The notes under the pieces are model-generated. The model had not been told where the DNA came from, did not search any database, and was given only the letters and a program-made list of their open reading frames with translations. A stretch of DNA of 64,000 nt from a virus, in IMG/VR virus record IMGVR_UViG_3300018080_000015, positions 24,187-88,186 of that record, one strand, 5' to 3'. Positions 32,191 through 58,605 of this stretch are shown piece after piece (the first letter of the stretch is position 1; the number at the start of each line of letters is the position of its first letter). The position numbers and the translations under genes were made by a program.

Positions 32191-32538
32191 TCACGGTCTC
32201 CGGTCCAGCGTGAGCCCGCGCAAATCGACGTAGCTCTGGAAGGTGCGGATTGGTGGGCACCGGCTGGCAATGAGCTCGGGCGGTCCGTTGACGAAACAGT
32301 GCTTGTGTCTGCCCTCGAAGTTCTCAAGGAGCTTGAGCGCGAGCTCTTCCTGATTCGACTTCTCGGGCACGGGCCAATCGTAGAAGAGCCAGACCGATTG
32401 ACCGCAGCCGTGACAGCACAGCTCTAGGACGATGAAGCCGAGCCGTTTGACGTCTTCGTCGCAAAGGAAACAGTGGCGATGCACGTGCGGGGAGCGCGCG
32501 TTGCACTTCGTCACGTAAAATCGCTCTGGCTCGGACAT
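32191..32538 (-). CDS. Cysteine/histidine-rich small protein after the large terminase
   Basis: A 115 aa protein with candidate zinc sites: KCNARSPHVHRHCFLCDED and LELCCHGCGQSV, then HKHCF. The start ATG overlaps the terminase stop as TGATG. It may be a zinc-binding partner of the packaging motor or a late regulator. I do not recognise a named family. Confidence 0.5.
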   Translation of the reverse strand: MSEPERFYVTKCNARSPHVHRHCFLCDEDVKRLGFIVLELCCHGCGQSVWLFYDWPVPEKSNQEELALKLLENFEGRHKHCFVNGPPELIASRCPPIRTFQSYVDLRGLTLDRRP

Positions 32539-34703
32539 CACAGATTGAAGTTGAAGTCTGCGAAGGGATCGGTGTTGACGTTCTCAGGAGCGCTACCGCC
32601 CATGATCTTGAGGAGCTGGCGTTCGGCCGAGTTGGCGATGTCCAGCTTCTCCATCTCCCCGAGGGTAAACGGCACCGGCTTCCTGATCACGTGAAAATCG
32701 CGAGCGATGTGCGCATGAACCGCAGCCACGCAGTCTGCCACGTCCTTGGTTCCGAGTGTGCCGTCCGCACGAGTCGCAGTGCAGTTGATCTTGTCGAGCT
32801 CGGTGTCGTACTCGAGCGAGCTGCAGTCCATGAAGAAAGGCTCGTAGGCGTAGAAGCTCGTGCGCCTGTCGATCATTGACTGTCGAAGGTACTCGTACGG
32901 TGCTGTGGTGCGCTCGAGGGAGAGAAGCTCGGCCTCGATGCCCACTGCTTCGAAGGCGTCGATGGAATCGGCCGATTGGAACTGGTCGAAGGAAACCCGC
33001 TCGAAGCCAGGATACTCGCCGAAGGCGTAGCACGCCCAGATGATATCCCTCAGACGACGGGGCTCGAGCTTGCCCCCGGGCGGAGCGTAGAACCTGCACA
33101 TCACGTCGATGATGGTGATCGGGCGCTCTTCGACGAAGAAGATCCAGCCCCCTTCAACCTCTTCGTTCTCTTCCTTTACGATGCGCTGCTTGTAGCCGCC
33201 GAAGTGACCGATGGCGAAAGCAGCCCCGCACTTCGTCCGTGCAAGGTCGCCGTGGACGTAGCGGGTCCTGTGCGGGTTGACCTTGGGGTACTTGGCGAAG
33301 TTCTCCGCAGTCTTGTGGTGGTCGTAGCGGGTCGGGTCGAACAGCTCGCCCTTCGAGTTGAGGAGCTGGGTCGGGAACTTCGAGCGAAGAATCTGGGATG
33401 CAGAGATGCCTTGAGGCTCCGGGAGCTTGAACGGGTGCTCCCTGGGGATGTCTCCGCAATCCTCGAGCCCCACACAGCCCCTGTAGATCGACGTCTCCTC
33501 CATGAACGGATTGCGGGCCAGGATGGACCAGCCCGAGATGTCCTTGATGGCTTTGTGCAGGTTGTCGATGTAGAGGTCTTTGAGCTTGTGTGGAACAGCC
33601 TGGATGCGACACCCGGCCGGCATGCGATCAGCGAGCTTCTTCAGGTCTGCTTTTTCGACTTGGTCGTCGTCCCCAAGCATACGAGACGGGTTCGCAGCGT
33701 TGCCAAGGAAGATGTAGAAGCGCTTGGTCCCGTACTTGTGGTCTGGACGGGACATCTTGGGGAGCCACTGGGGGTAGTCCAAGACGGCGACGCGGGGATT
33801 GCCCTTCGAGGTTTCGATTCTGCGCTCGAGAAAGTCGCCGGGGAACTGCTTCGAGGAGATCATGTAGAGCCGGGCGAGTACGAAGTCCTCTTCAGTGACG
33901 TAGCGGGATGCTTGGCGGCCCGCGAAGGCGTCGAAAAGCACCTTGGCCTGGTCATACTCTCCGGCGAGTTTGGAGTGGCGGGATTGTGCAGCTCCGACCA
34001 TGAAGTTGAGCTCGTCGAGACAGCCCCCGATGACGTTCTCGCCCAGGATGGAGCTCTCGCGGGAGTTGCCCGCCATCCAGACGACGTTCTGCTTCGGCCA
34101 CCAAAGCATGTCCTTGCCCGTGGGCCTGAACAGCTCGTGGTTTTGGAAGAGAGGTGAGGCCATCAGCGCATCGGTGACGTAGTTCCACATGACGTCGTGG
34201 GCACTGCGGCCGTCGACGGAAAGTGTGGCGAAGACGATGCGGGAGTCTGGAGCGTTGTCGAAGATACTTTGCGGGTTCTTCCGACAGAGCGTGTGATAGA
34301 GCTCGTAGGAGATCCCCATGTGCGCAGCGTAGTTCTTTCCCCACCCAATAGCCCCCGTCAGGATGACCTGCTTGATGAAGGGATTGTTCAGGATACGACA
34401 AAGACGGTCGAGCAGCAGCGGGTGTAGGTTGCGCCCCCGGTGCCCCATGTAGTCGTTGTCGAGAAAGAACTGCCGCGGAGAGACGGGCGGGATGTAGAAG
34501 TGCTCAGAGTCGAGCGCGTTGCGCGTTGGGGTCTTGGCCGCGTTGGTCTTTCTCTGCTTGACGCGCTCTTGGAGCTCTCGGATGAGAATGCCGCGTTGGA
34601 CTGGCGAGAATCGGTTGAGGCGCTCGATGATCGGAGGAGGAGATGGGATCTGTTCCCATCCCCCGAGCCCCTCTACCAGATGCTGGCCAATGTCAGCGCC
34701 CAT
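32538..34703 (-). CDS. Large terminase subunit (ATPase and nuclease)
   Basis: A 721 aa DNA packaging motor. The ATPase domain has a Walker A-like LTGAIGWGKNYAAH at about residue 115 and a Walker B with catalytic acid GGCLDELNFM at about 228. The C-terminal nuclease domain starts near 460 with YVHGDLARTKCGAAFAIGHFGG (the first acidic metal ligand in HGDLA) and has RVSFDQFQSADSI and later TRADGTLGTKDVADCVAA. It cuts concatemers and pumps DNA into the head through the portal. Spacing to the portal gene is normal; the small terminase candidate is about 9 kb away, an unusual separation. Confidence 0.85.
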   Translation of the reverse strand: MGADIGQHLVEGLGGWEQIPSPPPIIERLNRFSPVQRGILIRELQERVKQRKTNAAKTPTRNALDSEHFYIPPVSPRQFFLDNDYMGHRGRNLHPLLLDRLCRILNNPFIKQVILTGAIGWGKNYAAHMGISYELYHTLCRKNPQSIFDNAPDSRIVFATLSVDGRSAHDVMWNYVTDALMASPLFQNHELFRPTGKDMLWWPKQNVVWMAGNSRESSILGENVIGGCLDELNFMVGAAQSRHSKLAGEYDQAKVLFDAFAGRQASRYVTEEDFVLARLYMISSKQFPGDFLERRIETSKGNPRVAVLDYPQWLPKMSRPDHKYGTKRFYIFLGNAANPSRMLGDDDQVEKADLKKLADRMPAGCRIQAVPHKLKDLYIDNLHKAIKDISGWSILARNPFMEETSIYRGCVGLEDCGDIPREHPFKLPEPQGISASQILRSKFPTQLLNSKGELFDPTRYDHHKTAENFAKYPKVNPHRTRYVHGDLARTKCGAAFAIGHFGGYKQRIVKEENEEVEGGWIFFVEERPITIIDVMCRFYAPPGGKLEPRRLRDIIWACYAFGEYPGFERVSFDQFQSADSIDAFEAVGIEAELLSLERTTAPYEYLRQSMIDRRTSFYAYEPFFMDCSSLEYDTELDKINCTATRADGTLGTKDVADCVAAVHAHIARDFHVIRKPVPFTLGEMEKLDIANSAERQLLKIMGGSAPENVNTDPFADFNFNL

Positions 34704-43903: not shown

Positions 43904-43951
43904 GAAAACGAAAAAAGGCCGAGCCCGAAGGCCCAGCCTTTTTTCGTTTTC
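43904..43951. terminator. Strong bidirectional terminator
   Basis: Perfect 16-bp inverted repeat GAAAACGAAAAAAGGC ... GCCTTTTTTCGTTTTC (arms 43904-43919 and 43936-43951). A T-rich arm follows the G/C core in both directions. It ends the transcript from the upstream small basic gene (43965) and isolates the terminase/lysis operon. Confidence 0.85.
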
Positions 43952-48881: not shown

Positions 48882-49592
48882 TTATCCTCCCGATACCTTT
48901 GATCCTACTTCATTCGGATCAGTGCTGTCAACCGCATTATTGCTTGATTTGCGCGTTTTTTGATAGGCTCTGAAGCCCTCTTTCGCAAGGACTGCGAGCG
49001 CCCGATCCGTCTTCCGAATCTGCGTTTTTGGTTTGCGCTTGCCGGGGAGATACAGGCTCCACGGTTTGCGGACACTCTCCCGACCCAGCTTCGCCACGAG
49101 GCGGCCATCGAGCTCGAGCTTGATCCACTGCTTCGTTTTGGTGAGCTTGGCCCCCGTCAGCTTTCGCCAAATCGTGAAGATACGGGCTGCCCGTTTCGGC
49201 GACTCCTCCAGGCAGGCCTTCCAGACGTCCTCTACGAACTCCGGCGTGGCGTAGACTGTCCCCTCCCGGCGCACGCCACCCTCCGCGGGAGCGAACTCGA
49301 GCCGCAGCGCCCCATCGGCCACGAGCGTCACGAGGTACAGGTTCTGCGGGCTCGGCCCGGAGCGTCGGGTCGTCCAGTTCTGGATGGTGTTCGTGCCCCC
49401 AGCCTTCCCCTCATCTCGAGCGTACCAGTCGAGCGCCTGACACAGCTCCACGTAGGTGCAATAGCGCCTCGTCCAGTGCTCGCTCTTCGGCCCGGTGATC
49501 CGGTGCACCGCATCCAGTGCGGCCCTGCGGTCGGTTTCTCGCTGGGCCTGTTCACGCTCCTGAAGGAGCTCTGAGACTAGCTGGTCAAGCAT
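48882..49592 (-). CDS. Hypothetical basic protein
   Basis: A 236 aa protein starting at ATG 49592 behind GGAGAGGAGG. It is helical at the start (LVSELLQEREQAQRETDRRA), mixed in the middle (IQNWTTRRSGPSPQNLYLVT) and basic at the end (KLGRESVRKPWSLYLPGKRK). It may be DNA-binding, possibly with an HTH around residue 68-85. It is the first gene after the terminator at 49665-49706, so a promoter must lie in the 70 bases above it; a TTGACA box is present at 49639-49644 but its -10 partner is poor. Confidence 0.45.
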   Translation of the reverse strand: MLDQLVSELLQEREQAQRETDRRAALDAVHRITGPKSEHWTRRYCTYVELCQALDWYARDEGKAGGTNTIQNWTTRRSGPSPQNLYLVTLVADGALRLEFAPAEGGVRREGTVYATPEFVEDVWKACLEESPKRAARIFTIWRKLTGAKLTKTKQWIKLELDGRLVAKLGRESVRKPWSLYLPGKRKPKTQIRKTDRALAVLAKEGFRAYQKTRKSSNNAVDSTDPNEVGSKVSGG

Positions 49593-49664: not shown

Positions 49665-49706
49665 GAAAAGCCCCCAAGGAACGTCCCTGTCCCCTGGGGG
49701 CTTTTC
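49665..49706. terminator. Bidirectional terminator
   Basis: GAAAAGCCCCCA ... TGGGGGCTTTTC (arms 49665-49676 and 49695-49706), a 12-bp perfect stem with A/T tails in both directions. It separates the small-gene region from the sigma/ParB operon. Confidence 0.8.
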
Positions 49707-49726: not shown

Positions 49727-50422
49727 TCACTCGATGTCCTTGAGCCTGGTGATTCGACACCGCTTCCACCCGCGCGGCTCGACCCTGAACCTCGTGGTCT
49801 GAACACCCGACACCTTAGCGGATGCGCTGATCACCCTCTCGGCTTCGGCGACGGTGCAATCGTCGCATTCGATCGCCTCGCCTACCTGGATGGTCTCTGC
49901 GCCGCAAGGAGACACATAAGGCCAAAGGCTCGTGCTCCCTGTCAAGAGGTAGAGCGTCGTCGGCAGCTCGTCAACGTCCCTATAGAAAGCATCCCCACAG
50001 GAACCAATCAGCCGTCCATCTGTCGTTTTGCCCGTAACCGTAATCATCTCGCCACACACAGTGCAAACCTCGTGCGGCCCGTCCCACACCCTGATGGTGT
50101 GGTGCCCCTCCGCGTCGATCCACACCTCCACTGGAGTGGTGAGGTTCGAGCACGTGTTCACGTTCTGAATCGCTGTCATGAACACGTCTCGAAGATCGGG
50201 CAAGTCCTCCTGTATCTCCCCTCCCGCGTATTCTCCGGGCTTGAGAAACGACTGCAGGAAGCAACTTGCCACGAGCTCCCGGTACTCGTCGTCTGGCATG
50301 ACCGAAAGGGCCATCCACACTGAGTAGGGTCGCTCCTTCTCCTCGTCTGTGTACTCGTCGCGGTCGTAGGGCTCTCCCTCGGCGAAGAAGAACTCTGGTG
50401 AGAACGATAGTTCAAAACTCAT
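49727..50422 (-). CDS. Hypothetical protein with zinc-type cysteines
   Basis: A 231 aa acidic protein starting SFELSFSPEFFFAEGEPYDR. It has VWDGPHEVCTVCGEMITVTG with a CxxC, a GSCGD loop and IECDDCTVAEAE, giving three cysteine pairs. The end is basic (RVEPRGWKRCRITRLKD). It is not bracketed by an inverted repeat, unlike the genes above it, and lies just before the terminator. Function unknown. Confidence 0.45.
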   Translation of the reverse strand: MSFELSFSPEFFFAEGEPYDRDEYTDEEKERPYSVWMALSVMPDDEYRELVASCFLQSFLKPGEYAGGEIQEDLPDLRDVFMTAIQNVNTCSNLTTPVEVWIDAEGHHTIRVWDGPHEVCTVCGEMITVTGKTTDGRLIGSCGDAFYRDVDELPTTLYLLTGSTSLWPYVSPCGAETIQVGEAIECDDCTVAEAERVISASAKVSGVQTTRFRVEPRGWKRCRITRLKDIE

Positions 50423-50440
50423 CGTTTCCTCCCTGTTGTT

Positions 50441-50847
50441 CGCTATGCTCTCGGTGACGCGCTCCGGCTACTGGTTAGATGATTCGGCTAAAGCCGACGC
50501 TCCTGATGACGTCTTCGATCGGAGTCTTGGCGTCCACGGTCTCACCCTGACGGTCCGAGCCCAAGAGAACGCCGTTGCCGGCGAAGAAATCCTGGTGGGC
50601 GCCTTCGAGCGTGAAGCCGTAGCGGACTGGCTTCAAGAGCCCCTCGTCGTCGACGTACACGGTATCCCTGTTGGGGAACATGTGCGCCAATGCGACGCAA
50701 CTAAACTTGCCCGCTCCGTAGATGTGCCTGATGTCGCTGTCGGGAAATGAAGTCTCCACGACCCTCTGGTTCTTGGCATCGATGATAATTGCTCTGATAC
50801 TCATGGTGTGCATCCTTGGTTGGAGCGCGCCACTGAGAGCATAGCGA
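50441..50847. repeat. Inverted repeat pair 1 around one gene
   Basis: Arms 50441-50466 and 50822-50847 are reverse complements at 24 of 26 positions (TCGCTATGCTCTC-GTG-CGCGCTCC). They enclose the gene 50475-50804: the right arm lies just upstream of its ribosome binding site, the left arm just after its stop. Confidence 0.75.
50475..50804 (-). CDS. DUF3846-like small protein
   Basis: A 109 aa protein starting at ATG 50804 (a second ATG three codons upstream is also possible). It contains VYVDDEGLLKPVRYGFTLEG, AHQDFFAGNGVLLGSDRQGE and TVDAKTPIEDV, the usual pattern of DUF3846 proteins (a strand pair followed by a GN-LV loop), which occur widely in phages and plasmids with unknown function. 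It is the only gene inside repeat pair 1. Confidence 0.55.
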   Translation of the reverse strand: MSIRAIIIDAKNQRVVETSFPDSDIRHIYGAGKFSCVALAHMFPNRDTVYVDDEGLLKPVRYGFTLEGAHQDFFAGNGVLLGSDRQGETVDAKTPIEDVIRSVGFSRII

Positions 50848-50890
50848 GGTTTGGTGTTGTACGCACAACCACGGCGGCCACTGTTTCTAC

Positions 50891-51175
50891 TTAATAGTCA
50901 AAATGTGAGTAGGTCGACGCCTCGCACTCCCCGGCACAATCTGTACCGCAATGCGGGCACACCCACTCCTGCTCTTCCGCGAAGATCGCGTCTTGGCACT
51001 TCTGGCAACACCCGCTGATGCGGTACTCCTGCCTGGAGATCTCGTCCTTGAACTCCGTCGCCAGCCCGCCACACCACGTGCACAAATCCTTTCGGATCTG
51101 CCCGCGGCGAGACTTGCCAATCACGAAGTCGAGGAACTGTTCGACTCCTTCGCTCTTCTTACTTGGTTCTGCCAC
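50891..51175 (-). CDS. Conserved-type small zinc protein (DLCTWCGG)
   Basis: A 94 aa protein starting at GTG 51175 (GGAGGGG upstream). It reads KKSEGVEQFLDFVIGKSRRG, then DLCTWCGGLATEFKDEISRQ, EYRISGCCQKCQDAIFAEE and CPHCGTDC, giving three zinc-type pairs. This motif set is one I associate with a small protein found in many phages. Role unknown. Confidence 0.55.
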   Translation of the reverse strand: MAEPSKKSEGVEQFLDFVIGKSRRGQIRKDLCTWCGGLATEFKDEISRQEYRISGCCQKCQDAIFAEEQEWVCPHCGTDCAGECEASTYSHFDY

Positions 51176-51338
51176 GACCCCTCCACACATTGAAGTATGA
51201 GAACTGCTTGGTTCCGCACGTGCACGGGTGTGGTGGGACGATTGTCCCGTCACTGAAGAGACACCATCGCGAGTGTTTTTTCACTCGGACTGTCTCCTCT
51301 CCCGGACGCCGGAGCAAAACGGCCTGTTTCTTCGTCAT
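51159..51338 (-). CDS. Small hypothetical protein
   Basis: A 59 aa protein from ATG 51338, overlapping the upstream stop as ATGA: TKKQAVLLRRPGEETVRVKK then CTCGTKQFSYFNVWRG. One CxC/C set suggests a metal site. Function unknown; member of the three-gene block inside repeat pair 2. Confidence 0.45.
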   Translation of the reverse strand: MTKKQAVLLRRPGEETVRVKKHSRWCLFSDGTIVPPHPCTCGTKQFSYFNVWRGRGRTK

Positions 51339-51559
51339 ATCACGAGCACTCTGACGCCCCCACTCATGTGAGGGACGAGCGGCACCCAAATGCCGTCAAT
51401 GCGGACTTCCGCATCGTCTGAGAGCACCACCTCATCGCCGCCGATTCCGAAGCACGGCACTGGCCGCACGTAGTAGCGACGCTTTCCGTCGATCTCCTCG
51501 AAATCTGCTCGAGCGCTTAGAACGTCCACGAGTCTGTCTGTTGATCCTATCCATCCCAT
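51335..51559 (-). CDS. Small hypothetical protein
   Basis: A 74 aa protein from ATG 51559 (GGAGG with a five-base gap). It is beta-rich (RRYYVRPVPCFGIGGDEVVL then VRIDGIWVPLVPHMSGGVRV) after a short helix (STDRLVDVLSARADF). Unrecognised. It is the first gene of the block inside repeat pair 2. Confidence 0.45.
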   Translation of the reverse strand: MGWIGSTDRLVDVLSARADFEEIDGKRRYYVRPVPCFGIGGDEVVLSDDAEVRIDGIWVPLVPHMSGGVRVLVI

Positions 51560-51662
51560 GTTTGCCTCCACTGTGGTGGCCGCCGTGGGTGTACGTACAA
51601 CTACTGTTGATGACATCCGGTGCGGTACCTCTCACGAGAACGTGGTCCCCGTGGAGACCGTT

Positions 51663-51872
51663 TTATATCACGAACACCTCTGCGCTTGTGGCCTCGGACC
51701 AATCGCTCTGTTCATCCCAATAGATCTCATTAGCGATGTTGTCGAGCGCCTGGATCAATGAGCCTTTCCAAACCGCTTTACCGTCATCATCGAAGAACTG
51801 CACCTCAAGCTCATTGAGCTCCGCGACTATGTCGCTGAGGACTGCAACACGAGCTGACATACTCCAACTCAT
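51663..51872 (-). CDS. Small hypothetical protein
   Basis: A 69 aa protein from ATG 51872, coupled as ATGA. It has VLSDIVAELNELEVQFFDDDG, KAVWKGSLIQALDNIANEIY and a final ATSAEVFVI. The FFDDDGKAVWKG loop suggests a beta hairpin on a helical scaffold. Function unknown. Confidence 0.45.
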   Translation of the reverse strand: MSWSMSARVAVLSDIVAELNELEVQFFDDDGKAVWKGSLIQALDNIANEIYWDEQSDWSEATSAEVFVI

Positions 51873-52090
51873 ACTGCGGCCCTGATCGCTTCCTTGAGCG
51901 TCTTGAAGCGGCCTTTCTGAACTGCGGGAGCGGCGTCGGGATCGTTGGAGCCTGGTGTGAGCCAAAGCACCTTATAGAGATTCCACACCCACAGTCCCTT
52001 GCGCACGAACCATTTACGATTCGGCGACACGTACGAACCTCTCCTGCTTTTCGTCCACCCGTATCGGATGGTCTCTTTCTGTTCCGTCAT
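51869..52090 (-). CDS. Small basic hypothetical protein
   Basis: A 73 aa protein: YGWTKSRRGSYVSPNRKWFV then KGLWVWNLYKVLW and GRFKTLKEAIRAAV. Basic and aromatic, of the kind that wraps a short strand pair with a final helix, typical of small phage proteins. Function unknown. Start ATG 52090. Confidence 0.45.
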   Translation of the reverse strand: MTEQKETIRYGWTKSRRGSYVSPNRKWFVRKGLWVWNLYKVLWLTPGSNDPDAAPAVQKGRFKTLKEAIRAAV

Positions 52091-52105
52091 GATGCCTCCT
52101 ATGCA

Positions 52106-52628
52106 TCGAGGGCACGACGCAAAGCACGAGCCTGTTTTACTCTACTTGCCTGTTGGCATGCGGAGCCGGCGAAGCGTCGTCAACTGTGCCTCCCTATCTA
52201 GTAGGAACCACAAAGCCGACCGATAAGCCGCCTCCTGGGTTGAGGGAGGACCATCGAGAACGTGGTCCACCACGTCAACCACCGTCTCCACGCACTGTGC
52301 CATCGTGGCCGTCTTGAAGAACTCCTCAAGACCGCTGAAGGTCCCTCCTTCGTCAAGCGAATCGATGAGCCTCTGCATGCTCGCGTCAAACCACGGGCGC
52401 TCCCCTATCTCGAATCCGCGACCGTGTTTCTTTCTGGAGCGAAGCCATCGAAACTTGTCCGCAAGCCCCTCTGGTATTCCTCCCGGTTTGGGTCCTACCG
52501 GGAGAGAGTGCCCGAGCTGAGTCGGAATCTCCCGGTTGAATACTACTGACTTGTGAGTAATCTTCTCTTCCATGTTACCTCCCTTGGTACTGTAACGGGG
52601 AGGCTCGTGCTTTGCGGCGCGCCCTCGA
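52106..52628. repeat. Inverted repeat pair 4 around one gene, nested in pair 3
   Basis: Arms 52106-52133 and 52601-52628 match in reverse complement at 26 of 28 positions (TCGAGGGC-CG-CGCAAAGCACGAGCCT). They enclose the gene 52142-52573 and lie entirely inside pair 3. Confidence 0.75.
52142..52573 (-). CDS. Hypothetical protein
   Basis: A 143 aa protein: VVFNREIPTQLGHSLPVGPKP, RPWFDASMQRLIDSLDEGG, then a helical part ATMAQCVETVVDVVDHVLDG and AAYRSALWFLLDREAQLTTL. No family recognised; helical C-terminus and a proline-rich middle. It is alone inside repeat pair 4. Confidence 0.4.
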   Translation of the reverse strand: MEEKITHKSVVFNREIPTQLGHSLPVGPKPGGIPEGLADKFRWLRSRKKHGRGFEIGERPWFDASMQRLIDSLDEGGTFSGLEEFFKTATMAQCVETVVDVVDHVLDGPPSTQEAAYRSALWFLLDREAQLTTLRRLRMPTGK

Positions 52629-52698
52629 CTGAATCGTCAGTGAGAGGCACCGCACTGGATGTCATCGGATGTGCTTCCGCTTGGGACCGCGAGCGGTT

Positions 52699-53145
52699 TT
52701 ACATTTTCGCTCGCTCTGTTCTGAGATGTCGAATGTCTTCGATGATTGATTCCCTGTCCGACTCTACAAGATGCAAAGCCGAACCAACCCTGCGCACCCA
52801 CTCTTGTCCTCGAATCACGTCCCGCTCTGGAGTATGCGGATGCCCCATAAAGAGGTCCGCTGTGTGCTGAACACCCCTCATTGCGGCCTCACGCTGTGTC
52901 GTCGAACCGAACGTTGAAGCTCGCGCCGTGAGATTCCCTTTCCGGAGATAAACGTATGTCCACCCACCGAGATAAGGCTGAACCACAAGCGCCAAGATGT
53001 CCCCAATTCCTCGGACGATCAATAGATTGTCTGAGGAGTCGAGCTTGTAGAGCTCCACGGCGGCCTGACTAAGTGCTGCCTCGCGGGCGAGTTTGAGCGT
53101 CCTGTCTTTTTTCACGATCGGGCCGATTCTGAATTCCCGTGCCAT
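52699..53145 (-). CDS. Hypothetical protein
   Basis: A 148 aa protein from ATG 53145 (GGAGGTAACT): REFRIGPIVKKDRTLKLARE, then NLLIVRGIGDILALVVQPYL and GWTYVYLRKGNLTARASTFG, and a helical C-terminus (DRESIIEDIRHLRTERAKM). The start suggests a small alpha/beta fold. Function unknown. Confidence 0.45.
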   Translation of the reverse strand: MAREFRIGPIVKKDRTLKLAREAALSQAAVELYKLDSSDNLLIVRGIGDILALVVQPYLGGWTYVYLRKGNLTARASTFGSTTQREAAMRGVQHTADLFMGHPHTPERDVIRGQEWVRRVGSALHLVESDRESIIEDIRHLRTERAKM

Positions 53146-53161
53146 AGTTACCTCCACTCTT

Positions 53162-53589
53162 GATGTGAACATCACTGTGGCCACCACGATTTCTAGTCTA
53201 GCGCAACATCCCCCGCGCGGGAGGATCACTGCGCTTCGTACGGCGAAAAGCCTCACCCTTGAGCCATCCTGTGGTCTCGTATCGATCGGAGAGTAGATAC
53301 CTCCGCGCACGCGCAACTGCCTCGTTTTTGTCCACGCACGCCACCACGAACCGAACCGGATTGAATCTGAGGTTCGTCTTTGCGAGCGCATTCGCAAACT
53401 CTTGCGCGATACAATGCCTGATGTCGAACGCTATCCCCTCCTCGTCGGATAGATCGTCCCACTGTTCCAAGTGAGCGCGAACGATCGTTTCGAGGGGGAG
53501 AGACGCTATCACTCTGGCGATTAGATCGAAGTGTTTCTTTGTCATCGTCTGTGCCTCCTTTTTGTGGTGGCCACAACGATGCTCACATC
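53162..53589. repeat. Inverted repeat pair 6 around one gene, nested in pair 5
   Basis: Arms 53162-53187 and 53564-53589 match in reverse complement at 23 of 26 positions (GTGGTGGCCACA--GATG-TCACATC). All three differences leave G-U pairs in the leftward RNA. They enclose the gene 53198-53545. Confidence 0.75.
53198..53545 (-). CDS. Conserved-type small phage protein (MTKKHF)
   Basis: A 115 aa protein starting TKKHFDLIARVIASLPLETI, with FDIRHCIAQEFANALAKTN and PVRFVVACVDKNEAV. The opening KKHF and the helical pattern followed by FD/NPRF-like residues is common in a small protein family of many phages with unknown function. Start ATG 53545 behind AAGGAGG. It is alone inside pair 6. Confidence 0.5.
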   Translation of the reverse strand: MTKKHFDLIARVIASLPLETIVRAHLEQWDDLSDEEGIAFDIRHCIAQEFANALAKTNLRFNPVRFVVACVDKNEAVARARRYLLSDRYETTGWLKGEAFRRTKRSDPPARGMLR

Positions 53590-53672
53590 CACTGGGGCTC
53601 GCGGCCCCAAGTGGAAGCACATCCTTCGGTTAGCTCGCCAAGCTGTGCGCCCGTCCGGGCGCGAGCGAAGGG

Positions 53673-55007
53673 CTACTTCTTGCCCTTCTTGCTGGTCTTC
53701 TTCTTCCCTCCTTTCTTGGTCTTCTTACTGGTCTTCTTCTCTCCCTTCTTGGCCTTCGCGGGCTGCTCCGCGATCTCCCCGGCGATAGCCCTATTCCCGA
53801 CCTCCACGGGCTGCTCGACGTTGACGTTTCCGCCCGGAACCTGTCTGAGCGGCTTGAGCTGCACGAGCCCATAGTTCTTGGACGCGCTATGCCGCGCGAG
53901 GAAAATCGCTGCGGCTTGCCCGCCCATGAGGACATCCTTGCCTGCCTTGGTGGGAATCCACCCCATGTTGCACTTCGTGCAATCGAGCATCCTGAGTACA
54001 TCTTCGTCCGGAGAATCCGGGAGAAGCTTGTATCCCTCGCACTCTGTGCACGGCACCTCGAGCGGATCTGAGAAGGCTGCCGTGGAACGCTCATACTCAT
54101 CGCGGAGAGTCTTGAGCTGTTTCTGGGCCTTTTTGAGCTCCCGCTCAAAAATCCGCCCCTCCTTGGTCTTGGCTGCCTTGAGGTTTCCCTTCTCGGTGTA
54201 GAACTCGCTGGTCTTCTTCTTCTTGCCCTTGGACGTCTTGTCCTTCTCTGCGCTCTTGGACTTCTTGGGCTTGAGGCCCTCATCATCCTTGGCCAGAGCT
54301 TCGTCGAGGGCGACCTTGAGCCGCCGACACTTGGCCTGCTGATCGTCGGTCTTGAGCCTGGCGAGCTTCGCCTCTTGCTCTGCCTTCGACCATTCCTTGT
54401 AGACCTTGGTCCGCTTGCTCTTGCCTTCTGCCTTCTCGGCCAATTTCTCGGCCTGGGCCTTGGCCTCCTTGGCCGTCTTCACGAGAGCTCTGAGCTCCGC
54501 ACGTTCGTCCTCGAGCTCCTGCTCGAGTTCCTTGACGGATTTCTCGGGTTCGGAAGCCTCTGCCTCTTCCTCGGACTCTTCGTCCTCGTCATCTGGCTCG
54601 TCTTCTTCTTCCTCCTCCTCCGCTTCTGCGTCCTCGAAGTCCGACTCGTCGTCATCATCCTGCTCTTCGTCTTCTTCCTCCTCCTCGAAGTCTTCTGATT
54701 CCTCCTCGTCATCGTCGTCCCACTCGAAGCTGTCGTCCTCTTCGTCTTCGTACTCCAGCCAATGCTCGAGAAGAGCCTCGAGCGGCTCGCCCTTGGAGAT
54801 CTGAGCTTGGGTGTAGAGCCCAATCTCATCTCCCTCCTGGTCGAGCGCTGCGATCTTGCCCTTCGTCGTCTTGCTGGGGACCAACATGCCGAGTTCATCG
54901 TTGTCTTCCTCGGGAAGGACGACTCTGTAGCCTTTGATGCTCTTGTCGGGCACCACGTGGACCACTGAACCGAGAACCTTGCGCTTGATCACTTTCTTCT
55001 TCGCCAT
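53673..55007 (-). CDS. Large charged protein with acidic core, zinc pair and Lys tail
   Basis: A 444 aa protein from ATG 55007. Residues 1-80 fold with beta strands (KGYRVVLPEEDNDELGMLVP). Residues about 90-160 are an acidic run (EEEEEDEEQDDDDESDFEDA). A Lys/Ala coiled coil follows. Near residue 350 are CTECEGYKLLPDSPDE and LDCTKCNMGW, a DnaJ-like zinc site. The last 40 residues are Lys/Ser/Thr (KKTSKKTKKGGKKKTSKKGK), similar to the tail of the 44574 protein. It resembles a DNA mimic or nucleoid-binding protein; a chaperone-like role is possible. First gene inside pair 7. Confidence 0.5.
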   Translation of the reverse strand: MAKKKVIKRKVLGSVVHVVPDKSIKGYRVVLPEEDNDELGMLVPSKTTKGKIAALDQEGDEIGLYTQAQISKGEPLEALLEHWLEYEDEEDDSFEWDDDDEEESEDFEEEEEDEEQDDDDESDFEDAEAEEEEEEDEPDDEDEESEEEAEASEPEKSVKELEQELEDERAELRALVKTAKEAKAQAEKLAEKAEGKSKRTKVYKEWSKAEQEAKLARLKTDDQQAKCRRLKVALDEALAKDDEGLKPKKSKSAEKDKTSKGKKKKTSEFYTEKGNLKAAKTKEGRIFERELKKAQKQLKTLRDEYERSTAAFSDPLEVPCTECEGYKLLPDSPDEDVLRMLDCTKCNMGWIPTKAGKDVLMGGQAAAIFLARHSASKNYGLVQLKPLRQVPGGNVNVEQPVEVGNRAIAGEIAEQPAKAKKGEKKTSKKTKKGGKKKTSKKGKK

Positions 55008-55088
55008 GCTGTGTACCTCCCTTACGGGTTCACGAACGACCCACCCACTGCGGGTCGACACCGCGCAAGCCATCACCTGCGCTGCCTC

Positions 55089-55439
55089 CTACCGCGGAGG
55101 CAATCCTCGAGCGGCACGACGTCTCTCCTGATCGTAGTCGGTGTCACGAGCTGCACCCGGCAACTGCTCCACCATTTTCTCGACCAAGGCCTGAGAGTCG
55201 CACCGCACGAAGAAGTTGCGTCCTTTGGCCTCGAACCACAACTTCTGAATGCACCAACCGTGACCGCACTCGCACTCACCGTATTCCCTGCGGACGACGA
55301 CCTCGACGGTCGAGATATCGGCATCCTCTGGGTCTTCGGCGTCCACATCATAGATGTAGTAGCGAGCGCGGACGTCTGGCTCATCGCCATGGTCCGCTTC
55401 GCATGCAACACACTGCCACATATGCTTTCTCCGGGACAT
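55089..55439 (-). CDS. Zinc-type small protein
   Basis: A 116 aa protein from ATG 55439, coupled as TGATG. It has WQCVACEADHGDEPDVRARY, YGECECGHGWCIQKLWFEA and FFVRCDSQALVEKMVEQLP. The cysteine pattern CxxC, CxCGHGWC is a zinc ribbon. Function unknown; nested inside pairs 7 and 8. Confidence 0.5.
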   Translation of the reverse strand: MSRRKHMWQCVACEADHGDEPDVRARYYIYDVDAEDPEDADISTVEVVVRREYGECECGHGWCIQKLWFEAKGRNFFVRCDSQALVEKMVEQLPGAARDTDYDQERRRAARGLPPR

Positions 55440-55702
55440 CACCATCCTCCGTTCTCGCCTGAGAGGAACATCTCCCACACTTTCTGAGGCTCACCGCCCA
55501 AGCACGGGATCGTGCCTGGGTCGCCTCTATCTTCTTCGGTGGCTTCGAGAGCCTGCTGGAGCGTGAGCTCCATGCATTCCTCGTCGCCCTCCTGAGCGAA
55601 GTAGATAGCCTCTTGAAAGAGGTAGAGGCTCTCATAGCGATCTGCGTGGAATTGAACGTCGTCCGGATTGAGCTGTTTCATGCGCTCGAAGAGCTTGGAC
55701 AT
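55439..55702 (-). CDS. Small hypothetical protein
   Basis: An 87 aa acidic, helical protein from ATG 55702: SKLFERMKQLNPDDVQFHAD, FQEAIYFAQEGDEECMELT and PQKVWEMFLSGENGGW. Unrecognised. A 6-bp hairpin (GCCCGG-CTCAGT-CCGGGC, 55722-55739) lies 20 bases upstream of its start and may regulate the block. Confidence 0.45.
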   Translation of the reverse strand: MSKLFERMKQLNPDDVQFHADRYESLYLFQEAIYFAQEGDEECMELTLQQALEATEEDRGDPGTIPCLGGEPQKVWEMFLSGENGGW

Positions 55703-55721
55703 CACGTACCCCCATTGTAAG

Positions 55722-55739
55722 GCCCGGACTGAGCCGGGC
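55722..55739 (-). other. Hairpin upstream of the 55702 gene
   Basis: GCCCGG-CTCAGT-CCGGGC on the minus strand, immediately followed by CTTACAATGG. It is a local stem inside the right-arm side of pairs 7/8 and might end the previous transcript or cap the leader. Confidence 0.45.
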
Positions 55740-55821
55740 GGTTGATGGATTGCGCGGTGCCCGCGAACTGTGCTCGGATGGACGCACAACTTGGCGAACT
55801 AACCTGGTCGCTTGCTTCACA

Positions 55822-56201
55822 CACTTGCCGTGTCGCGCGCACCCAACCACTACCTGTTAGGGTAGTCGTTCATGGGAAACGCGCGGTTATCACGATTCCC
55901 GACGCACTCTGTCATGGGAGCGACGTTCATGGACCCACAAACGAGGCACACGAACAACTGCTTCCCACTCGGAGAGCATCGATGAATCGGGACATACTGA
56001 CCCGGATGCGGATCCGATGGGCTATCCTCGAAAGGAACCGTCGCCCTGGGGACGAGCAAGCCCCGACGGGCCAATCCGTCCACGATTTTAGCTACGAGCT
56101 GCGGCTCGCGTTCACAAAACTCCGGGTCCGCAAACCTTCTGATGTCGAGCTTCATTTGACTCATGACGTCCTCCTGTTGGGTGAGCACGACATGGCAAGT
56201 G
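55822..56201. repeat. Inverted repeat pair 9 around one gene
   Basis: Arms 55822-55847 and 56176-56201 match in reverse complement at 23 of 26 positions (CACTTGCC-TGTCG-GC-CACCCAAC). The left arm ends two bases before the stop codon of the enclosed gene (55850-56164); the right arm touches the left arm of pair 10. Confidence 0.75.
55850..56164 (-). CDS. Small zinc-type hypothetical protein
   Basis: A 104 aa protein from ATG 56164 (AGGAGG). It starts SQMKLDIRRFADPEFCEREP, has a GLLVPRATVPFEDSPSD segment and a CLVCGSMNVAPMTEC pair. The C-terminus is polar. Unrecognised. Alone inside pair 9; the enclosing arms almost touch its coding ends. Confidence 0.45.
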   Translation of the reverse strand: MSQMKLDIRRFADPEFCEREPQLVAKIVDGLARRGLLVPRATVPFEDSPSDPHPGQYVPIHRCSPSGKQLFVCLVCGSMNVAPMTECVGNRDNRAFPMNDYPNR

Positions 56202-56596
56202 GCTGGTTGAACTCCTTTCGTGTGCGCTCTCTATGCTGTTATCTCATGTCCTGTTCGAAACCTTGCGCGATGGCGGACTGTTCGAATTCTTCGAGTTTGT
56301 CCCACCAATGACGCGCCTTGTCATCGTTCTGGAGCGACCGTCGCCCACAAGGGTACTCGACGGTGCCGTTACTGCCATCTCCTCCCAACGGAGTCGGGTT
56401 CTTGGATTCTGCAAGAATCCTCCAAAGCTTGGAATAGAGCTCACGCCACGACTTTCCTTCTGGCATGAACCTTTCGTAATCCACGCACTCTGCGACTTCA
56501 TCCGCTGTCCAATACTCAAGCCCTTCTGGCATTTTCACGCTCATAACTCACCTCCCTACTGCACTCGAGAGCGCACACGGGAGGAGTTCAACCTGC
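56202..56596. repeat. Inverted repeat pair 10 around one gene
   Basis: Arms 56202-56231 and 56567-56596 match in reverse complement at 27 of 30 positions (GC-GGTTGAACTCCT--CGTGTGCGCTCTC). They enclose 56239-56544, and the left arm begins exactly where the right arm of pair 9 ends. Confidence 0.75.
56239..56544 (-). CDS. Hypothetical protein
   Basis: A 101 aa acidic protein: LEYWTADEVAECVDYERFMP, then GKSWRELYSKLWRILAESKN and ARHWWDKLEEFEQSAIAQGF. The W-containing helical ends could form a small bundle. Function unknown. Start ATG 56544 with GGGAGG. Alone inside pair 10. Confidence 0.45.
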   Translation of the reverse strand: MSVKMPEGLEYWTADEVAECVDYERFMPEGKSWRELYSKLWRILAESKNPTPLGGDGSNGTVEYPCGRRSLQNDDKARHWWDKLEEFEQSAIAQGFEQDMR

Positions 56597-56605
56597 TTGC
56601 TTCGC

Positions 56606-56927
56606 TTGACAACAACGCACCCTCCGCGCCCCTTACTGACGCGGTGACCGCTAGATGAAACCGAGAAGCATCATCCAACTGGGCACTCCATGCTCACACA
56701 CGCCGTCTGGTTCTACCCAACACCCGCAAGAAGTGTAGCAACCCGACTCCCTTGCCCACGCTTCGAGCTGTTCGATGTCCGGCTTCGGCTCGACGATATC
56801 GACCCGACGCTGTTTCCCGCCCATTCGAAGAATGATGAAATCGGCGTGACTGGCGTCCTCTGCGAAAGTACTCATGCTGTTCCTCCGTCCTGTTGATTAA
56901 GGGGTCCGGAGGATGCGCTGTTGTCAA
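56606..56927. repeat. Inverted repeat pair 11 around one gene
   Basis: Arms 56606-56635 and 56898-56927 match in reverse complement at 26 of 30 positions (TTGACAACA-CGCA-CCTCCG--CCCCTTA). They enclose 56651-56875. The right arm overlaps the left arm of pair 12 by five bases. Confidence 0.7.
56651..56875 (-). CDS. Small hypothetical protein
   Basis: A 74 aa protein: STFAEDASHADFIILRMGGK, RVDIVEPKPDIEQLEAWARE and SGCYTSCGCWVEPDGVCEHG. The C-terminal cysteine group could bind zinc. Unrecognised. Start ATG 56875 behind GGAGGAACAGC. Alone inside pair 11. Confidence 0.45.
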   Translation of the reverse strand: MSTFAEDASHADFIILRMGGKQRRVDIVEPKPDIEQLEAWARESGCYTSCGCWVEPDGVCEHGVPSWMMLLGFI

Positions 56928-56955
56928 AGACACGTCACAAGGCGCGAGGCTAGGA

Positions 56956-57483
56956 TTATAGTGAAATAACCGAGCCCGACCTGGGCTCGGTCGGGACTAG
57001 CGCTTCAAGCTCCGCGGGGATTCGAATCTGACTCAACACTTCCCATCGAAGCGCGGTAGGCATCGCCGCCCAAAGCTCACTGCGGTAGTGATGCTCGGAA
57101 TCCATCGGAGCGCAATCACTGATGTAGAAATCCACGTAGTGATAGACGGCGAGCCACATCTGCTTTCTGCGTAGAAACGTGGCTCGAGAGCGACTCACCT
57201 CCTGGTTCTTTTCGCTCTCGAGTGTCCACACTCCACACGGTCCGACTGAGTAATACGGCTCGTCTTCCGTCGTTTCAAGCTGCTCTTCAAGCAACCCATC
57301 CACCGCGGCCCCCTTGACGAGATCCTGGATGCTTTCCACCATCCATTGGTGTTCCTCGTCTGTGAGCTTGAACGCCCGGTCGCGCACGTTCCTGATCTTG
57401 TATCGGACATGCGCGATGTAGACGCCATCGCCCTGGAATTCCGTGGTGTCGGGAAATTCTCGTTTCAATGTTGGTCTGGTCAT
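56956..57483 (-). CDS. Hypothetical protein
   Basis: A 175 aa protein from ATG 57483 (GGAGGCACT): TRPTLKREFPDTTEFQGDGV, YIAHVRYKIRNVRDRAFKLT, DEEHQWMVESIQDLVKGAAV, then WLAVYHYVDFYISDCAPMDS. Mixed helix/strand, no family recognised. The last codons (PRSGSVISL) overlap a terminator hairpin. Alone inside pair 12. Confidence 0.45.
   Translation of the reverse strand: MTRPTLKREFPDTTEFQGDGVYIAHVRYKIRNVRDRAFKLTDEEHQWMVESIQDLVKGAAVDGLLEEQLETTEDEPYYSVGPCGVWTLESEKNQEVSRSRATFLRRKQMWLAVYHYVDFYISDCAPMDSEHHYRSELWAAMPTALRWEVLSQIRIPAELEALVPTEPRSGSVISL
56961..56990 (-). terminator. Terminator overlapping a gene end
   Basis: CCGAGCCC-AGGTC-GGGCTCGG (arms 56970-56977 and 56983-56990) is followed on the minus strand by TTATTTCAC. 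The stem lies within the last codons of the preceding gene, so it costs no extra space. Confidence 0.55.
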
Positions 57484-57573
57484 AGTGCCTCCACAAAACT
57501 CGCGCCTTGTGAGCTGCCTTTGACCTCTGGTTGGCTCCTTTGCTCGCGCCACAAGTCGAGCTTGTGACGGAGG

Positions 57574-57825
57574 TTAACGAAAGTCTTTCGGACTGGGACC
57601 GAATCCTCCGATCCTACCGGGACAATTCGGCGCGTAGGATCGTGAGATGGTACGGCCCGCTTTGATAGAATCAAAGCGGGCTGCGCCGTCTCCGTACACC
57701 CGACACGATTCCTCAACCCCAGCCCATACACACGCGTTGACAATAGCACCCGATACTTCGGGCACTATCCAACGCGCTTCGCGCGCCTTCGCGCGCCTTC
57801 GACGCTTGCGCTTGCGTTTCGCCAT
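57574..57825 (-). CDS. Small protein with very basic start
   Basis: An 83 aa protein from ATG 57825 (AAGGAGAAAGC). The start AKRKRKRRRRAKAREARWIV is extremely basic, then AIVNACVWAGVEESCRVYGD and a polar end. The gene contains a 12-bp perfect stem (57655-57681). The basic start suggests nucleic acid binding. The C-terminal half is less convincing as protein. Confidence 0.4.
   Translation of the reverse strand: MAKRKRKRRRRAKAREARWIVPEVSGAIVNACVWAGVEESCRVYGDGAARFDSIKAGRTISRSYAPNCPGRIGGFGPSPKDFR
57655..57681. repeat. Perfect 12-bp hairpin inside a small gene
   Basis: GCCCGCTTTGAT-AGA-ATCAAAGCGGGC has a three-base loop and no mismatch. No T-run follows, so it is not a standard terminator. It is also codable, so it may have a role in mRNA folding or be a DNA site. 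Confidence 0.5.
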
Positions 57826-58195
57826 GCTTTCTCCTTGGTTTGTGGAGCGAGCGAAGCAAGCCAACCATATCTCGTATACACTCCGATCCTACTACCCACC
57901 AAAGGGGAGGATACTCGGAGCTACGTTTGTCAAATATGCGGTCAAACGGTGCACAACGTGAGGGAAGCACTAGGGGAGCGCTAGCGGCTTTCGAGAGGCG
58001 CCCCTCAAGCATCCCATTGCGACCACCATACGGGGAGGGAGACTTAAAGCCTTACCAACCTTGCGCGCCCGAAGCACGCCGCTCAACTTCCATGTCGCGG
58101 CTCGCGCGAAGCCTTGTCTCTCCACGCCACCTTGATATTGGTTAGCTCTACTAATCGCTAGATGTACCCTAAGATGTCAACGTTGTGCGGCTCTA

Positions 58196-58339
58196 ACCGT
58201 GTGCTCGCACGGTCGCCCCCCTCCGAGGGGAACACGAGCCCCGTCGCGGGTAGTATCCCGCTCCCAAGCGGTTACTTGGGACCCGATCGTTGATCCACGA
58301 TCCGTGCCGATTACACACATTCGGTGCATGAAAAGCACC
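58196..58339. ncRNA. Run of six short hairpins (possible structured RNA or origin)
   Basis: In order: ACCGTG/CACGGT, CCCCT/AGGGG, GCGGG/CCCGC, CCCAAG/CTTGGG, GATCGT/ACGATC, GGTGC/GCACC. Three in a row have loops of exactly six bases, and CACG (58233) can pair with CGTG (58303) to close three of them in a cloverleaf-like shape of 74 bases. It is not a recognisable tRNA. Strand is not determined. Confidence 0.35.
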
Positions 58340-58401
58340 AAGTCAAGCAATGGTGCGGGTTTGCGCGTACCTCGCGAGGCTTTTCACGCATCGAATGTAT
58401 G

Positions 58402-58518
58402 ACAAGGTGTCACGGTTTTTCGACCCCACTTGTAAACGCGCGTTCACACGCCGATTTCAAGGCCCCACAAGGCCCACAAGGCGCTTGACACGAATGCGGA
58501 GGATGACAAGGGACAAGG
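58402..58518. repeat. Five ACAAGG repeats (iteron-like)
   Basis: ACAAGG starts at 58402, 58467, 58476, 58506 and 58513, all on the plus strand. The first copy is within the palindrome TGACAAGGTGTCA. Spacing of the pairs is 9 and 7 bases. Such short clustered repeats occur at initiator binding sites, but a role here is not shown. Confidence 0.3.
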
Positions 58519-58605
58519 CCTTGCTCGCGGTCTCGGAGCGTGCGAGAGACCTTGCCGGCCATGCCCACCCGCACCCGCGCACCCACGCACCCGCGAGGCG
58601 CTGAG

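Follow-up and report, generated by a model that had tools for sequence, protein, structure and literature searches.

Private inverted repeats bracket successive gene blocks in a presumed operon of a contractile-tailed phage

Background

What do inverted repeats do when each pair encloses one gene, or one group of genes, and each pair has a sequence of its own? This question is raised by 17 small genes at 50440-57865 of a 64-kb stretch of DNA (hereafter the window; G000:C1:24187-88186), which is part of the 88,186-bp virus record IMGVR_UViG_3300018080_000015. A preliminary description of the window reported thirteen pairs of inverted repeats in this chain of gene blocks and offered three candidate explanations, namely long-range mRNA stems that circularise or insulate each message, RNase III processing sites, and the ends of exchangeable gene cassettes. 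All of the readings given below are based on one genome and one operon.

In this paper we compare the repeats with shuffled controls and with other viral and prophage DNA, fold the presumed transcript, and weigh the explanations that would account for the arrangement.

Results

Inverted-repeat pairs

Ungapped inverted pairs were sought in the whole 88,186-bp record with a score of +2 for a match and -3 for a mismatch. Eleven strong pairs were obtained, with scores of 37-46, arms of 26-33 nt that are 85-93% identical, and distances of 262-2111 nt between arms, and all pairs in the record that score 37-46 fall within 50440-57865. The best long-range pair outside the chain scores 30. A gapped self-BLAST of the record recovers the same 11 pairs, with everything else at 30 or below. 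Two pairs that had previously been aligned by hand, 56202-56231 with 56567-56596 (27/30) and 51609-51635 with 52640-52666 (25/27), were reproduced exactly. The largest block is bracketed by 53628-53660 and 55772-55804 (28/33, loop of 2111 nt), a pair that is missed by a standard inverted-repeat finder but is clear in the ungapped search. A twelfth pair, 55059-55085 with 55733-55759, is weaker (81% complementary, core score 29), and the thirteenth, 57529-57555 with 57842-57865, requires a one-base gap, is at background level when ungapped, and is the least certain. The original count of thirteen thus stands as eleven strong ungapped pairs, one weaker pair and one gapped pair.

The comparison with shuffled sequence that the preliminary description had proposed separates the real pairs from the controls. 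When the region was dinucleotide-shuffled (n=100) the best score had a median of 25 and a maximum of 35, and when only the intergenic gaps were shuffled (n=300) the median was 25 and the maximum 30, with no pair at 36 or above. The existence of the bracketing repeats is near-certain. Partners are also specific to each other: for the 24 arms of the first 12 pairs, the partner is the top complement in the 88-kb record, with scores of 29-46 against 19-24 for the runner-up. Between blocks, the best likeness of arms scores 19, inside the shuffled range of 14-22, which agrees with the earlier statement that the repeats differ from block to block and rules out a dispersed repeat as well as repeats of the transposon type, such as the ends of a transposon or a miniature inverted-repeat transposable element (MITE).

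Layout of the chain

All 26 arms lie outside open reading frames (ORFs) and together they cover 712 of the 1222 non-coding nt (chance about 3e-25), and no two of the 13 pairs cross (chance about 1e-7). Every intergenic gap of at least 51 nt holds an arm, in keeping with the preliminary figure of nearly every gap over about 45 bases, while gaps of 8 nt or less and overlapping genes have none. Along the RNA each unit runs in the order 5' arm, start codon, gene or genes, stop codon, 3' arm. Between the stop and the 3' arm there are 2-27 nt, and the nearest stem usually has its 5' arm 11-30 nt ahead of the start, just outside the Shine-Dalgarno sequence (SD), so the arms are flush with stops and ribosome-binding sites as first described. 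The arm called 'left' in that description does follow the stop codon, but since all the genes are on the minus strand it is the 3' arm of the RNA. Likewise each pair does bracket one gene or overlapping group, except that three blocks are nested within larger ones.

There are ten top-level units in succession, and each 3' arm is separated from the next 5' arm by 0-17 nt, apart from a single junction, between blocks 2 and 3, at which successive units overlap by 5 nt. Three units hold an inner unit, which always comes right after the outer 5' arm (7-12 nt between), and the gene that follows an inner unit begins soon past the inner 3' arm, or about 50 nt past it in block 6. Because neighbouring arms abut, the operon RNA is predicted to fold into a row of 10 closed loops, three of which contain an inner loop. 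The features of the chain are listed here in RNA direction.

57842..57865, minus strand, block 1 5' arm (from the fold)
57574..57825, minus strand, gene 1, 83 aa, N-terminus very basic (MAKRKRKRRRR); ATG start, SD AAGGAG; no family match
57529..57555, minus strand, block 1 3' arm of the gapped stem; 21/24 paired in the fold, weakest of all pairs
57499..57524, minus strand, block 2 5' arm, score 37
56956..57483, minus strand, gene 2, 175 aa; homologue not found
56923..56948, minus strand, block 2 3' arm; 5 nt shared with block 3 5' arm
56898..56927, minus strand, block 3 5' arm, score 40
56651..56875, minus strand, gene 3, 74 aa
56606..56635, minus strand, block 3 3' arm (pair search)
56567..56596, minus strand, block 4 5' arm, score 45
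56239..56544, minus strand, gene 4, 101 aa
56202..56231, minus strand, block 4 3' arm (pair search)
56176..56201, minus strand, block 5 5' arm, score 37; 0 nt from block 4 3' arm
55850..56164, minus strand, gene 5, 104 aa
55822..55847, minus strand, block 5 3' arm (pair search)
55772..55804, minus strand, block 6 outer 5' arm, score 41, 28/33, loop 2111 nt
55733..55759, minus strand, block 6 inner 5' arm, score 29, 81%; weaker pair
55439..55702, minus strand, gene 6, 87 aa
55089..55442, minus strand, gene 7, 117 aa; overlaps gene 6
55059..55085, minus strand, block 6 inner 3' arm (pair search)
53673..55007, minus strand, gene 8, 444 aa; charged, Cys-rich segment with sub-threshold Anti-TRAP zinc match
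53628..53660, minus strand, block 6 outer 3' arm (pair search)
53597..53624, minus strand, block 7 outer 5' arm, score 46
53564..53589, minus strand, block 7 inner 5' arm, score 37
53198..53545, minus strand, gene 9, 115 aa
53162..53187, minus strand, block 7 inner 3' arm (pair search)
52699..53145, minus strand, gene 10, 148 aa
52667..52694, minus strand, block 7 outer 3' arm (pair search)
52640..52666, minus strand, block 8 outer 5' arm, score 44; adjoins block 7 outer 3' arm
52601..52628, minus strand, block 8 inner 5' arm, score 46
52142..52573, minus strand, gene 11, 143 aa
52106..52133, minus strand, block 8 inner 3' arm (pair search)
51869..52090, minus strand, gene 12, 73 aa
51663..51860, minus strand, gene 13, 65 aa
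51609..51635, minus strand, block 8 outer 3' arm (pair search)
51576..51601, minus strand, block 9 5' arm, score 42
51335..51559, minus strand, gene 14, 74 aa
51159..51338, minus strand, gene 15, 59 aa; overlaps gene 14
50891..51175, minus strand, gene 16, GTG start probable; overlaps gene 15
50856..50881, minus strand, block 9 3' arm (pair search)
50822..50847, minus strand, block 10 5' arm, score 42
50475..50804, minus strand, gene 17, 109 aa; DUF3846-like, slightly below Pfam cut-off
50440..50465, minus strand, block 10 3' arm, final arm of the chain
49727-50422, minus strand, gene 18, presumed final gene of the operon, without a bracketing stem
49706-49665, minus strand, intrinsic terminator after gene 18; 18-bp stem, 10 GC pairs, T-rich tail

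Good SDs precede nearly all 17 block genes, and family profile searches gave no match for almost all of them. Gene 16 matches phrog_19722 (E 2e-7; the query construct began 3 nt upstream). Gene 8 (53673-55007) has long acidic and Lys-rich stretches, and its Cys-rich segment weakly resembles Anti-TRAP zinc domains. There is no tRNA in the chain, and two Rfam matches are below the gathering score and away from the arms. A short motif, GAAGCAAGC / GCTTGCTTC, is repeated at 55806-55816 and 56597-56605, in the spacers between stems, and at 57846-57860 within a block 1 arm.

Pairing in the transcript

Since the blocks share complementarity and not sequence, pairing in the transcript is most likely how the arms act; complementarity without a common sequence is the signature of a single-strand structure, unlike the site of a recombinase or DNA-binding protein. 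Calculated duplex energies for the minus-strand RNA are -45 to -64 kcal/mol. In the minimum free energy fold of the 8.35-kb operon RNA, 11 of the 13 stems are formed. When blocks were folded singly, the ten strong stems computed had mean pair probabilities of 0.88-0.99, the inner 55059/55733 stem had 0.58 and the gapped 57529/57842 stem 0.51. The 11 strong stems contain 31 non-Watson-Crick positions, which on the transcribed strand are 15 G-U, 9 A-C and 7 transversions, so that 24 of the 31 substitutions between arms are transitions. A single true mismatch lies close to the centre of most stems and often leaves halves of roughly 10-16 bp. Irregular pairs (50440-57524) shun the helix ends and sit mid-helix (p = 0.0015 in a test that takes the scoring into account); as this test was devised post hoc, the result is a lead only. 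Judged from the sequence, the helices are likely to form in RNA in vivo.

The chain is placed within one presumed transcription unit because the terminator at 49706-49665 follows gene 18, and this terminator presumably closes an operon of 17-18 genes. It sits at 49665-49706 between the genes 49727-50422 and 48882-49592 and is very strong (18 pairs). It is also the sole strong minus-strand terminator, and the idea that the 3' arms themselves serve as intrinsic terminators is unsupported. At its other end the unit presumably starts within a non-coding stretch of about 740 nt upstream of 57865.

Other viral DNA and relatives of the phage

The same detector was applied to 4.8 Mb (overlaps included) of other viral and prophage DNA and returned 27 pairs with scores of at least 36, but no chain of unique non-crossing pairs was found in those 4.8 Mb. 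None of seven loci with single or crossing pairs (L111, L115, L123, L125, L280, L290 and L314) is a chain; where a locus has several pairs, one arm is used more than once or the pairs share a motif. In one of these, from a distant phage (L123:920-5690), AT-rich intergenic regions carry a repeated TTGTGTACAAT-like motif that gives rise to many crossing inverted pairs and looks like an operator family. In another viral contig the arms of a 67-nt inverted repeat are separated by a spacer of 58 nt (L302:14349-14540).

No close relative of the phage was found in the collections searched. Viral contigs scanned with the primase, gene 2, DnaB and sheath singly gave at most one remote match, alignment scans with the primase, terminase and polymerase gave remote relatives only (36% identity or less), and a genome contig collection yielded ten terminase relatives at 22-28%. 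No homologue of a block ORF was detected by tblastn of the loci fetched for comparison. We found no published description of an mRNA layout with a private stem for each gene block; related single cases only were met, in a search that reached mostly open-licence papers, so an earlier description is possible.

Discussion

Among the candidates first offered for the repeats, we favour the RNA family, that is stems and RNase III sites, because partners are mutually specific, 11 of 13 stems appear in the operon fold, arms are flush with stops and ribosome-binding sites, and a terminator stands at the end of the chain; the suggestion of cassette ends is weakened. The reading that we prefer, to which we would give slightly less than an even chance, is that the stems are mRNA-processing or insulation helices that are cut by host RNase III. 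The arms would be the two strands of long-range helices in a polycistronic early or accessory mRNA, transcribed on the minus strand from ~57.9 kb to 49.67 kb. Once transcribed, each 3' arm would pair with its own 5' arm, made 0.3-2.2 kb before, and close the gene or overlapping group into a loop, so that the completed RNA would be a series of abutting closed loops, three with an inner loop. Host RNase III would then cleave the helices of ~26-33 bp and split the operon into single-block mRNAs. The half helix that remains could keep both ends of a block mRNA together, and the held ends would confer protection from exonucleases and insulate translation of the block from that of its neighbours. 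More generally, whether uncut or released by RNase III, the operon mRNA may be a chain of private closed loops in which the end of each cistron is tied to its own start and the blocks are autonomous, insulated and possibly self-recycling; this would be a novel way for a phage to express its genes, and we advance it tentatively.

Processing by RNase III is favoured because the chain agrees with precursor ribosomal RNA (pre-rRNA) in the length of its helices, in its loops of 262-2111 nt and in its serial order. According to the statement in PMC8708148 that cites Young & Steitz 1978, RNase III binds and cuts two double-stranded RNA (dsRNA) duplexes around 16S and 23S, and the helix around 16S arises from complementary sequences 1700 nt apart. 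Both in the pre-rRNA and in the chain, distant complementary arms make a long helix that brackets one unit of a polycistronic transcript, and the units are serial. In contrast to pre-rRNA, the chain brackets protein-coding cistrons, with 13 stems in one operon, some of them nested and each with a private sequence, and what the blocks enclose are ORFs with SDs, not structural RNA. The intercistronic RNase III sites of T7 (R1.1 and others; PMC8708148) also place dsRNA between the genes of a phage polycistronic mRNA. R1.1, however, is a local stem, whereas neighbouring arms at a junction of the chain complement the far side of a gene and not each other; in the 11 strong pairs and in the 81% pair every arm is best complemented across the block, and not within one gap as in T7.

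Several observations weigh against the reading that we prefer. No RNase III was recognised in the record, so the enzyme of the host must be assumed. Other pairings replace two of the 13 stems in the whole-operon fold, and gene 18, the last of the operon, has no stem. No promoter was found upstream of 57865, the minus strand of 57866-58605 being without a sigma-70-like promoter. The excess of G-U over A-C pairs (15 vs 9, p 0.15) is in the right direction but is not significant, and the transcribed strand is therefore unproven from sequence. Finally, the true mismatches at the centres of the stems could equally serve to resist or limit cleavage.

The strongest rival, which is compatible with the processing model, is that the helices stay uncut and act as closed-loop or insulator structures. 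Each stop region would be held beside its own ribosome-binding site, with fewer terminating or scanning ribosomes entering the next block, re-initiation on the same block favoured and the RNA protected. We regard this as unlikely but serious. The short distances from stop to arm (2-27 nt) and from arm to start (mostly 11-30 nt) speak for it, and the dependence of arms on gap length parallels ribosome termination structures (RTSs), which are present at intergenic distances >25 nt and depleted below (PMC7518266). The central mismatch could divide the helix into an inner half that ribosomes open and an outer half that keeps the loop closed. However, terminating ribosomes should open the inner half repeatedly, and a local hairpin would be enough for insulation and far easier to evolve than 13 long-range partners. 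A regulatory switch, in which a phage or host factor (a dsRNA-binding protein, helicase or antisense RNA) opens and closes the loops and so times the expression of blocks, seems quite improbable. It would suit an architecture that is the same across the entire operon, and small basic or Cys-rich products (genes 1 and 8) could conceivably bind nucleic acid, but the SDs are outside the helices, so that loop closure leaves start sites not directly hidden, and a regulator was not identified.

Outside RNA, the arms might be the ends of exchangeable DNA modules (recombination ends, single-stranded DNA hairpins or cruciforms), with nesting the result of a module inserted in a module. End-to-end tiling, the position of inner blocks always directly behind the outer 5' arm, and the orphan block genes, for which homologues were not found, are in accord with this. 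Yet the arms of different blocks lack the common sequence that a shared transposase or recombinase would need, arms that are 85-93% identical are a poor substrate for homologous exchange, GC content and GC content at third codon positions (GC3) are rather uniform over the blocks, no integrase or transposase was recognised among the genes scanned, and the chain coincides with a single presumed transcription unit, all of which makes cassettes improbable. Nor do the arms resemble integron attC sites, which are imperfect hairpins wholly at one cassette end, as adjacent arms are not mutual complements; the scan, which covered part of the ORFs, recognised no IntI-type tyrosine recombinase among the larger phage proteins scanned or the block genes. 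Template switching generates inverted repeats, and the pairs might be a functionless by-product of such mutational events, or chance. We consider this scarcely credible, because no gap-only shuffle of 300 reaches 36, there is no counterpart elsewhere in the record or in the 4.8 Mb, and the arms are placed regularly with respect to stops and SDs. Pure chance is refuted statistically by the region shuffles, the gap-only shuffles and the 4.8-Mb survey.

Other known systems share single traits with the chain. In the icaR mRNA of Staphylococcus aureus the 5' and 3' untranslated regions (UTRs) pair through a short motif and the Shine-Dalgarno sequence is hidden (PMC3868564), whereas the helices of the chain, at 26-33 bp, do not cover the SD and are repeated serially. 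RTSs, like the 3' arms, are stable structures right after the stop codon in longer gaps only, but they are scored locally and the partner arm in the chain is at the opposite end of the same block. The ORF-centric structure of operon mRNA (PMC5318159) likewise divides operon RNA into ORF-sized structural units. The SAS/ESAS elements and the cluster EG and O inverted repeats of actinophages (PMC7302621) are, like the arms, intergenic phage elements at gene starts. These consist of one sequence at many places, partly as short palindromes, whereas the pairs of the chain are unique and split across a gene, and the arms contain no single conserved start-associated motif.

If the helices form, the virus has arranged a whole operon with its own long-range helix for each gene or group. 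Long-range pairing could then divide a bacterial-type mRNA by cistron, which would link messenger RNA to the processing stems that have been known in pre-rRNA since 1978. The chain would be both an mRNA counterpart of those stems and a natural bacterial closed-loop mRNA. It would provide a natural test of whether stop-start tethering alters translation or stability, and design rules for the insulation of genes in synthetic operons.

Other features of the record

The record is that of a contractile-tailed phage, in which a tail sheath, portal, major capsid protein, DnaG-like primase and DnaB-like helicase were recognised, and it also encodes a RecA-like protein and a 5'-3' exonuclease. The large terminase (32538-34703) was identified by tblastn alone (27% to Vibrio phage Ares1), and PHROG and Pfam gave no match for it. 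A single ORF at L004:3772-6888 encodes a family A DNA polymerase whose N-terminal domain belongs to the uracil-DNA-glycosylase superfamily.

Between the stop of the primase and gene 1 of the chain, about 740 nt (57866-58605) are free of genes. This interval, which is perhaps the promoter or leader of the operon or an origin, contains a 23-nt inverted repeat with a 42-nt loop (58314-58336 with 58379-58401). The window has one other strong local hairpin, at 43904-43951, which is near-perfect over 22 nt, has an A/T-rich base and is probably a terminator.

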